A stretch of DNA of 64,000 nt from Nitrosopumilus sp. K4 (lineage in GTDB: Archaea; Thermoproteota; Nitrososphaeria; Nitrososphaerales; Nitrosopumilaceae), in the NCBI RefSeq assembly GCF_018128925.1, contig NZ_CP067007.1:1218164-1282163 (forward strand). Direction: 5' to 3'. The number at the start of each line of letters is the position of its first letter. Position 1 is the stretch's first letter. The notes under the pieces are model-generated. The model made no database searches, had not been told where the DNA came from, and saw only the letters and a list, made by a program, of their open reading frames with translations. Positions 58,427 through 60,889 of the stretch are shown here, piece by piece. The translations under genes and the position numbers were made by a program.

Positions 58427-59203
58427 ATGAAAAAATCAAATCAAACCATAGTTGCAGTGATTGCAGTCCTGGTTGTCTCAGTTTCTTTGAGCGCTGCCTT
58501 TAATGAGGCAGATGCAGAGGAGATTACACCATTTCCTTCAAGAGAAAAGACCATTTCTGTATCAGGACAAGCAACACTTGAAGTAGTTCCAGATCTGCTC
58601 ACAATTAGACTAGGAACAGAAACTCAAGAAAAAACTGCTCAAGAGGCTTTGGCATCAAATTCAGAGATGATGAACAAAGTAATCTCTGCATTAAAGACTG
58701 CAGGAGTATCAGAAGAGGAAATCAGTACCTCATCACTCAATATTCATCCAGTCTATGAGAGCTACAAAGATGAAAGAGGAGATTATCGTTCCAAACTTGT
58801 AGGATACAAGGTTTCCAACATCATCTCAGTTGAAACCAAAAACCTTGATTCAGCTGCATCTATTATTGATGGAGCAGTTTCAGCAGGGGTGAACAGAATA
58901 GATTCTGTGTATTTTTCATTATCTCCTGAGATATACAACGTTCTCAAAGATCAACTCCTAGAAGAAGCAGTAATCAATGCAAGAGAAAAGGCAGAGATTG
59001 CACTATCACCCCTTGATCACAAGATTATTGGGATAAAGAGCATCTCACTTTCTGAATTCAGCATACCATATCCAATGCCAGCATTCAGAGGAGACTTTGC
59101 CATGGCAGAATCAATGGCAAAATCTGCACCAACACCAGTGTTTTCTTCTGATCAAGACGTTACAACATCAGCTCATGTTGTATTTCTGATCGGAAGCAAT
59201 TAA
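58427..59203 (+). CDS. SIMPL-domain (DUF541) secreted protein
   Basis: A 258-residue protein with a signal peptide (residues 1-30, cleavage near ADA). The SIMPL core is SVSGQATLEVVPDLLTIRLG, then NSEMMNKVISALKTAGVSEE and SVYFSLSP. Members are cell-envelope proteins with roles in stress and outer-surface functions. The divergent membrane-bound regulator may control it. Confidence 0.87.
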   Translation: MKKSNQTIVAVIAVLVVSVSLSAAFNEADAEEITPFPSREKTISVSGQATLEVVPDLLTIRLGTETQEKTAQEALASNSEMMNKVISALKTAGVSEEEISTSSLNIHPVYESYKDERGDYRSKLVGYKVSNIISVETKNLDSAASIIDGAVSAGVNRIDSVYFSLSPEIYNVLKDQLLEEAVINAREKAEIALSPLDHKIIGIKSISLSEFSIPYPMPAFRGDFAMAESMAKSAPTPVFSSDQDVTTSAHVVFLIGSN

Positions 59204-59264
59204 CACCTTTTTTCTTTTTTAATACTTAGGATCTACTTTTTATTCTATAATCACGTATTGTATA

Positions 59265-59371
59265 TTGAAAGCTGACACAATCTCCTATTGTCATAAATTG
59301 GCGATTGTTTACCGGTCTGAGCATACGGGCAGGGCTGTGTAAAGATTGTTCCGCAACTAGTCAGCTTTCAA
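59265..59371. ncRNA. candidate structured RNA closed by a perfect 12-bp stem
   Basis: TTGAAAGCTGAC (59265-59276) is exactly complementary to GTCAGCTTTCAA (59360-59371). Inside lie a hairpin ACAAT/ATTGT (59277-59291), a possible TTG-CG/CG-CAA stem and a TTTAC/GTAAA stem. That gives a branched RNA of about 107 bases. It does not fit a tRNA, 5S or SRP RNA. There is no ORF across it on either strand that I can support. Direction is not known; AT-rich runs on both sides could be promoter or terminator. Confidence 0.45.
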
Positions 59372-59677: not shown

Positions 59678-59760
59678 TGTTTGTTCATTTGAACAAACAT
59701 TATTTTTGTTCAAAATTATGAACAAAATCTAATTTTGTTTGTTCATTTGAACAAACAAAA
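59678..59760. promoter_or_regulatory. three related palindromes (TTTGTTCA/TGAACAAA)
   Basis: Three inverted repeats share the half-site TTTGTTCA. Copy 1 (59678-59699) has perfect 10-base arms with a 2-base centre. Copy 2 (59704-59727) has 9-base arms and a 6-base centre. Copy 3 (59733-59760) has perfect 13-base arms and a 2-base centre. Centres lie 27 and 31 bases apart, near three helix turns. This suggests cooperative binding of a dimeric regulator. Confidence 0.55.
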
Positions 59761-59830: not shown

Positions 59831-60004
59831 CTAGGAACGAGATTTTGTTCTTAAAACGGCACTGCAACATGGGCATCTAACAGAATCTACATCCATGAAT
59901 AATCCACAAAATGTGCATCTTTTCTGACCTAGAGAATATCTCAAGCCATTTCTGACGGATTTTCCTTCAAATTGATAACATAATCCTCTACAGCTGCGGG
60001 CCAC
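59831..60004 (-). CDS. Cys-rich zinc-ribbon microprotein 3 of cluster, 57 aa
   Basis: Starts with GTG that overlaps the previous stop by one base (TAGTG). Motifs are CRGLCYQF near the start, then RCTFCGLFMDVDSVRCPCC, with a short basic tail. It is a paralogue of the next gene, with matching spacing of the C-x-x-x-C, CxxC and RCPCC motifs. Likely one or two zinc sites. Confidence 0.6.
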   Translation of the reverse strand: MARSCRGLCYQFEGKSVRNGLRYSLGQKRCTFCGLFMDVDSVRCPCCSAVLRTKSRS

Positions 60005-60186
60005 TATAGTTTCCCCCTAGTTAGTGAATTATGGCAGCATGGGCATCGATGGTACTTGGAAATTAGATATTCATCGCATACGGAACACCATTTTTTGTAA
60101 ATTGATGTGTTTGTTTTTCTAAATGATGCATTTGCTTGGTAATACCTACAAATGCTTGAACAGAAGTTTGTGCTCAAATCATACAC
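60004..60186 (-). CDS. Cys-rich zinc-ribbon microprotein 2 of cluster, 60 aa
   Basis: The frame is open to 60252, but that would overlap the neighbour; the GTG at 60186, just after the neighbour's stop with AGGAG nearby, is preferred. It has CSSICRYYQ, then WCSVCDEYLISKYHRCPCC. The motif spacing matches microprotein 3, so the two arose by duplication. The function is unknown. Confidence 0.6.
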   Translation of the reverse strand: MYDLSTNFCSSICRYYQANASFRKTNTSIYKKWCSVCDEYLISKYHRCPCCHNSLTRGKL

Positions 60187-60190
60187 ACTC

Positions 60191-60367
60191 CTAGCAGGCA
60201 CATGCCTCCTCTCTTTGAAATTTTGAGTCACAATCCTTGCAATAAATTCCATAATTGTCTATTTTTACTCCAATATTTCCACAGGCTACACAGATCCTGA
60301 TTGCGTTATTGACAACTTTCTTTCTTTGTTTAAATTCATTGTCAACGAGACTATTCATCATGCTCAT
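60191..60367 (-). CDS. Cys-rich zinc-ribbon microprotein 1 of cluster, 58 aa
   Basis: Starts MSMMNSLVDNEFKQRKK, a basic helix, then ICVACGNIGVKIDNYGIYC and KDCDSKFQ: four Cys in two pairs, a zinc ribbon. It ends with CAC. It is first in the three-gene minus-strand unit. Its start lies beside the operator pair of the divergent Fur-family gene, so it may be controlled by that protein. Confidence 0.6.
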   Translation of the reverse strand: MSMMNSLVDNEFKQRKKVVNNAIRICVACGNIGVKIDNYGIYCKDCDSKFQREEACAC

Positions 60368-60466: not shown

Positions 60467-60889
60467 ATGCAATTAGAGCAGATAGTGGATTCACTTAGAG
60501 AAGAAGGTCACAGAATAACTCCACAAAGAATAGCCATTATGGATTATCTTCTAAATACAGAGGATCATCCTAGCGCAGAACTTGTTCATTCCACTATAAA
60601 GAAAAGATATCCAATGGTTAGTCTTTCAACAGTATACAAAACACTAGATCTGCTAAGAGAAAAGAAACTAGTAAATGAAATTGAAGTTGAAGGAGAGGCA
60701 AGATTTGATGCACATATAGATGATCACATAAATCTGGTTTGTCTAAACTGTGGAAAAATTGAAGATATTGATGAAAAGGCGTTAAGAAATATTCAGACCA
60801 AGGTTGCAAAAAAATCAGAATATCTAATTATCAAAGGAAGTTTTGAACTGCATGGTTATTGCAGTAAATGTAAATCAAAATTCCAATAG
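60467..60889 (+). CDS. Fur/PerR-family metal-dependent regulator
   Basis: A 140-residue Fur-type repressor. The winged helix reads HRITPQRIAIMDYLL and SLSTVYKTLDLL. The dimer domain carries FDAHIDDHINLVCLNCGKI and ELHGYCSKCKSKF, the two CxxC pairs of the structural zinc site. The ligand set does not allow a firm choice between iron, peroxide or other metals. The paired operator just upstream indicates autoregulation. Confidence 0.9.
   Translation: MQLEQIVDSLREEGHRITPQRIAIMDYLLNTEDHPSAELVHSTIKKRYPMVSLSTVYKTLDLLREKKLVNEIEVEGEARFDAHIDDHINLVCLNCGKIEDIDEKALRNIQTKVAKKSEYLIIKGSFELHGYCSKCKSKFQ

Follow-up and report, generated by a model that had tools for sequence, protein, structure and literature searches.

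The perfect 12-base inverted repeat in a 64,000-nucleotide stretch of the Nitrosopumilus sp. K4 genome (the window, at its full length) raises the question of whether its arms close a structured RNA and, if so, what that RNA does. A first-pass annotation had guessed at an undescribed structured RNA here, a guess that the lack of an Rfam match and covariation in relatives support. Judged from its sequence, the segment 59265-59371 is a real structured RNA gene, previously uncatalogued. The gene probably stands alone and encodes an antisense small RNA (sRNA) of the Nitrosopumilaceae that acts in trans and would pair with the 5' end of the mRNA for a DUF5679 protein and likely block its initiation.

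Structure and distribution of the RNA

The inverted repeat is exact, with 83 nt between its arms. Taken alone it is mildly unusual and constitutes weak evidence: the window contains eight perfect 12-bp pairs with loops of 20-120 nt, whereas 20 dinucleotide-shuffled versions contained 0-7 each, on average 2.05. The repeat by itself was rejected as evidence because several such repeats occur by chance in the window. The complete 107 nt fold on the plus strand at -38.0 kcal/mol (z = -4.3), and none of 200 shuffles folded as well.

Comparison of homologous copies defines the architecture listed in Table 1. The first alignment (A1), which contains ~45 copies from a DNA search aligned without reference to structure, yields a consensus in which three helices meet in a three-way junction: the closing stem P1, the short hairpin P2 with the pattern ACAAU-NNCCN-AUUGU, and P3, a long hairpin. 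In this alignment 97.6% of the cells pair, and double-sided changes are present in 47 cells versus 13.6 in shuffles. The second alignment (A2) adds divergent copies and is fitted to a covariance model, so that its paired-cell percentage leans towards structure; 23 of its 34 pairs carry double-sided changes, a number as high as which was found in none of 500 shuffles. The covariation signal is lost when the pairing partners are slid by 1-3 columns. Covariation in the closing stem, which the first-pass annotation had named as the support to look for, is present in A2: pair 9-145 occurs as C-G (17), U-A (17), and U-G (11), while pair 10-144 occurs as G-C (21), A-U (13), and G-U (11), so that both show compensatory changes.

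Table 1. Coordinates of the RNA, its parts, and its flanking signals in the window
Feature	Position	Strand	Basis and remarks
Structured small RNA, ~107 nt, three-way junction	59265..59371	+	Fold z; covariation in 45- and 46-sequence alignments; no Rfam match
P1 closing stem, 5' arm	59265..59276	+	Perfect 12-nt inverted repeat; compensatory changes in divergent copies
P2 hairpin, ACAAU-(CUCCU)-AUUGU	59277..59291	+	Nearly invariant stem and CC in loop
Antisense segment (predicted)	59275..59294	+	Complementary to first 20 nt of DUF5679 mRNA with one mismatch; target on minus strand, G000:C1:582962-582981
P3 long hairpin, conserved GCAUAC apical region	59300..59352	+	Double-sided changes in 7/19 pairs in A1 (e.g. 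CG21/UA21, AU33/GC11)
P1 closing stem, 3' arm	59360..59371	+	Inverted repeat and covariation
Promoter (predicted)	59230..59264	+	GATC box 59230-59233; TATA box TTTTTATT 59237-59244; spacer with conserved CGTA-like element
Oligo-T run just 3' of P1	59373..59377	+	In most copies P1 is followed by an A/T-rich, usually T-rich segment

The RNA does not belong to a catalogued family. Rfam 15 gave no match at the gathering threshold for the window copy or for nine divergent homologous loci; at this threshold the only matches were tRNAs elsewhere, and at a lax threshold the element gave chance matches only (snoZ199, BSnc119). The earlier statement that the element is not a tRNA, 5S, or signal recognition particle (SRP) RNA holds, as no tRNA or Rfam family, RNase P RNA among them, matches the 107 nt. 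Features of C/D or H/ACA guide RNAs were also absent: the alignment shows neither a conserved RUGAUGA box nor an ACA tail, and no Rfam guide family matched. A literature search found no account of small RNAs of Nitrosopumilus, of DUF5679, or of structured RNAs of Thaumarchaeota.

A DNA search of 61 and then 250 Nitrosopumilaceae genomes recovered the element together with ~55 nt upstream in ~45 copies, mostly at 74-88% identity. A covariance model built from A1 placed the RNA in 89 of the 250 genomes, spanning six genera, with 2-5 copies in some. Exact matches to the core among named public genomes lie in Nitrosarchaeum, Nitrosopumilus, and other archaeal metagenome-assembled genomes, mostly of Nitrosopumilaceae. 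The RNA is common to marine and freshwater ammonia-oxidizing archaea. Outside the Nitrosopumilaceae, no match turned up among 201 sampled genomes of the order, and the 24-nt RNA core was not found in viral contigs. A shorter pattern of 18 nt did match viral contigs six times, but these hits do not represent the RNA (best model E-value 0.15). Some Nitrosopumilus genomes carry four to five diverged copies at unrelated loci (L137-L141 in genome G167, L146-L149 in G014, and L142-L145 in G169). Most of these keep the promoter and the antisense core described below, and copies L143 and L144 of G169 have an identical 3' flank, as after recent duplication.

The start of the DUF5679 mRNA as predicted target

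In the window's own genome (G000), the body of the RNA has only one second match, a 22-nt stretch at G000:C1:582962-582983, outside the window. This stretch is complementary to the beginning of a small gene (MTIGYCVKCRDKR...) whose 47-aa product is a DUF5679 zinc-ribbon protein (Pfam DUF5679, E = 3.4e-16). The P2 hairpin is the predicted antisense element. A TATA-like CTAATA is found at about -28 to -23 from the DUF5679 ATG in nearly all genomes, and this spacing suggests that the mRNA is leaderless; its first 20 nt would then probably be the complementary stretch itself (AUGACAAUAGGAUAUUGUGU).

The complementarity recurs across genomes. A pattern search of 14 genomes, allowing up to two mismatches, found the core both in the RNA and at the DUF5679 start in each of the 13 RNA-bearing genomes, in which ACACAATNTCCTATTGTC has no other match at one mismatch or fewer. 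The RNA copy itself differs from the core pattern by two mismatches in G066 and G076, and G126 contains the target only. The RNA-target duplex of the window genome has a predicted energy of -28.7 kcal/mol, a value equalled by none of 200 mononucleotide shuffles, and of 47 genomes examined, 41 have a duplex better than all 200 such shuffles. The other six are the four tested genomes of genus g18 and two weak hits in g17 (G249 and G255) in which P2 differs.

The coding sequence of the target bears the mark of a constraint beyond that on the protein. All 36 genomes compared have the same DUF5679 codons 2-5 (ACA ATA GGA TAT), synonymous sites included, while the other degenerate codons of the gene that are invariant in amino acid are uniform in only 3 of 31 cases (Fisher p = 0.0007). 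The frozen codons oppose the gene's own preferences, since isoleucine elsewhere is mostly ATC or ATT, tyrosine TAC, and glycine often GGC or GGT. First codons of neighbouring genes are not frozen (1/8). A family-wide pattern search agrees, with two exceptions in g1, g11, and g14 (G122 and G125).

Genera in which one partner differs are informative about the other. In genus g18 the RNA is retained, but its P2 loop has another sequence (UUUUCAC or one like it) that no longer matches the target, and in the g18 targets the same codons have drifted (ATA/ATT/ATC; GGA/GGT). The g17 target, ATGATAGGCTATTGCG, carries two changes (GGC and TGC), and RNAs from four g17 genomes contain the matching ACGCA(A/G)UAGCC; a g14 subclade repeats one of the two matching changes (ACGCAGUAUCC with TGC). 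Cognate pairs bind best, the g17 RNA giving -21.7 on its own target and -14.2 on the main target, and the main RNA giving -27.2 and -14.8. The exception is one g18 target, on which the g17 RNA is almost as strong. Finally, a variant RNA with different P1 and P2 (G127, G151, and G188) retains GCACAAUAUCCUAUUGUC in another part of the molecule. Evolutionary selection of the predicted pairing between the RNA and the DUF5679 mRNA is well supported by these four lines: the frozen codons, the drift in g18, the co-change in g17 and g14, and the antisense string kept by the variant RNA.

The variant architecture (L210:1501-1612, L211:1501-1610, and L213:1501-1612) has features of its own. A new P1 is formed by GAAGACAGAA/UUCUGUCUUC in L210 and L213, and the variant P2 of these loci is built from part of the antisense string and an internal GGAUAUU-like sequence. 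This sequence is possibly a built-in target mimic that could act as a lid.

Proposed mechanism and competing explanations

RNA polymerase would start at ~59265, as placed by the TATA box, and stop at the oligo-T run after 59371. The transcript would fold into the closing stem P1, the weak hairpin P2 with an exposed UCC loop, and the long scaffold hairpin P3. P2 in isolation is worth -0.7 kcal/mol and should thus be easily opened, and the 5' end of the mRNA has little structure of its own (-3.8 kcal/mol), against about -29 kcal/mol for the full duplex. P2 and the hairpin at the mRNA 5' end are built on the same stem, ACAAU/AUUGU, and their loops (UCC/GGA) are complementary, a combination that makes kissing followed by zippering plausible: the UCC loop of the RNA would first contact the GGA loop of the mRNA, and the pairing would then extend into an 18-21-bp duplex over the start codon. 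Initiation on a leaderless mRNA needs a free 5' AUG, and covering this AUG should hinder ribosome entry. The likely consequence of the duplex would be blocked translation initiation, and we infer repression rather than stabilisation on this ground. A broader proposal joins three claims: that a deeply conserved RNA shuts off a leaderless mRNA, first through a kissing contact and then by masking the start codon, that this regulation froze the first codons of the target across genera, and that such control is a mode specific to leaderless archaeal mRNAs. We regard this broader proposal as evenly poised.

Several observations weigh against the antisense interpretation. Codons 2-5 are intact in genome G126 and in six related genomes, each of which has TGC at codon 6, yet no RNA was found in these genomes with either model, and a blind search of this group with the predicted compensating G variant gave no RNA copy. 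The constraint on the target may therefore have a second cause, or the RNA of this group may be too diverged to detect or recently lost. Some RNA loops, such as AACCU and GCCCC, do not fully match the invariant target, and G068 and G128 have TGC in the target without a compensating change in the RNA. The mRNA hairpin itself, at -3.8 kcal/mol and not better than shuffles, could contribute. In addition, the genomes are related, so that the counts are not independent and their independence is overstated.

The explanation that comes closest to initiation block accepts the same pairing and reverses its sign. The duplex could protect the 5' end of the leaderless mRNA from 5'-to-3' decay or activate it in another way; the pairing does cover the extreme 5' end, and the sequence data fit either sign. 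We consider this unlikely, as a covered AUG should hinder ribosome entry, given what is generally known of leaderless initiation. Repression, through masking of a ribosome-binding site, is the presumed action of sRNA162, the best studied of the archaeal RNAs that work in trans (PMC3510493).

Somewhat less likely again is a structured RNA with another job, such as a protein scaffold, whose match to DUF5679 would be incidental or would stem from a shared protein-binding hairpin (ACAAU-loop-AUUGU). The loops of the two hairpins are complementary, not identical, even though their stems have the same sequence, and the match, at 18-21 bp, reaches past the hairpin and occurs nowhere else in the genome. 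Equal conservation of P3 and P2, the target kept by the G126 group without a detectable RNA, and the RNA retained in g18 although its P2 no longer matches are all compatible with such a job; the frozen codons, the matched changes in cognate pairs, and the survival of the antisense string in the variant architecture argue instead for pairing with the mRNA.

Promoter, surroundings, and known systems

The proposed antisense RNA appears to have transcription signals of its own. Of 45 copies, 42 have TTTTAT centred 24-26 nt before the first base of the RNA, 40 of them at 25-26 nt; GATC lies ~35 nt before this base in most copies, and promoter elements are also found upstream of most divergent copies. 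The GATC box may be the site of a specific activator or a B recognition element (BRE)-type site. It is not obvious upstream of the window's six tRNA genes. The oligo-T run on the other side of P1 is likely an archaeal transcription terminator.

The RNA thus passes as an independent gene, with its own promoter at a fixed distance and a target ~694 kb away in G000. Adjoining genes vary by clade, with SIMPL upstream in the window's genus and other genes elsewhere. Such differences between clades imply that the RNA should act in trans, and together with its own promoter they point to a stand-alone RNA rather than a leader or riboswitch. That the element is a riboswitch or leader acting in cis on the downstream gene is accordingly most improbable: many Nitrosopumilus genomes do have a same-strand gene of one open reading frame (ORF) family (cluster 0) ~32 nt downstream, but the downstream gene varies by clade and lies on the opposite strand or far away in others, the window included. 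The search for a constant same-strand downstream gene family found none, nor is there one downstream in the window, and the RNA has its own promoter and oligo-T end and occupies several loci per genome. A transposon inverted repeat or other mobile DNA element is just as implausible despite the terminal inverted repeat and the 2-5 copies in some genomes, as the covariation in P1, P2, and P3, which includes wobble and compensatory changes, is that of paired RNA, the promoter is conserved outside the repeat along with the whole interior, and the neighbouring ORFs show no recurrent family, although transposases and target-site duplications were not searched for specifically.

The surroundings had been described as 1.2 kb without standard genes between a SIMPL gene and palindromic DNA. 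This is mostly right, as the SIMPL gene (ending at 59203, Pfam PF04402) and the palindromes are present; the lack of standard genes holds in part, since the stretch contains small Cys-rich ORFs on the minus strand (59831-60252). The palindromes are two identical perfect copies of TTTGTTCATTTGAACAAAC at 59680-59698 and 59738-59756, 58 nt apart, with an operator-like look. A similar palindrome (GTTTGTTTGAAACGAACAAAC) lies just upstream of the divergent RNA copies L158 and L159, and a related one lies upstream of L141. The Cys-rich ORFs, at 59831-60004 and 60004-60252, are zinc-ribbon-like and have no Pfam match; their relatives adjoin the RNA copies L002, L004, L160, and L161 (neighbour cluster 11). 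Downstream, at 60467-60889, is a Fur-family regulator (Pfam FUR, E = 1.4e-29) that occupies the same place across the window's genus (neighbour cluster 7).

Very few archaeal small RNAs have a known target. This family offers one RNA, one predicted target, and an evolutionary record of their pairing in some of Earth's most abundant archaea, which renders RNA regulation in ammonia oxidizers directly testable. It also raises the general question of how sRNAs control leaderless mRNAs, which provide no Shine-Dalgarno region to mask. A model for the first contact exists in plasmid copy control, where RNAI and RNAII are cis-encoded, fully complementary antisense RNAs that meet through loop-loop (kissing) interactions. 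As in that pair, complementary loops on identical stems would touch first and a longer duplex would follow; unlike RNAI and RNAII, the RNA and its target lie at distant loci and match over only 18-21 nt.

Among archaea, a 2018 review of regulatory RNAs does not mention Thaumarchaeota or nitrifying genera at all (PMC5867862). The RNA resembles s479 of Haloferax volcanii as an archaeal trans-acting sRNA, s479 having a demonstrated mRNA target in znuC1 (PMC8155600); unlike s479, the RNA described here has no constant neighbourhood, and Rfam gave no match for it. Another comparison, made by description, is with sRNA162 of Methanosarcina mazei, an archaeal sRNA that pairs in trans near a translation start and most likely represses translation (PMC3510493). 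Both are archaeal small RNAs that base-pair in trans with an mRNA near its translation start, the pairing being predicted in the present case. The means differ: sRNA162 uses an unstructured linker for pairing and hides a ribosome-binding site that lies within a bicistronic mRNA (PMC3510493), whereas the RNA of the Nitrosopumilaceae has a conserved hairpin whose match is the 5' terminus, with the start codon, of an mRNA that is probably leaderless.
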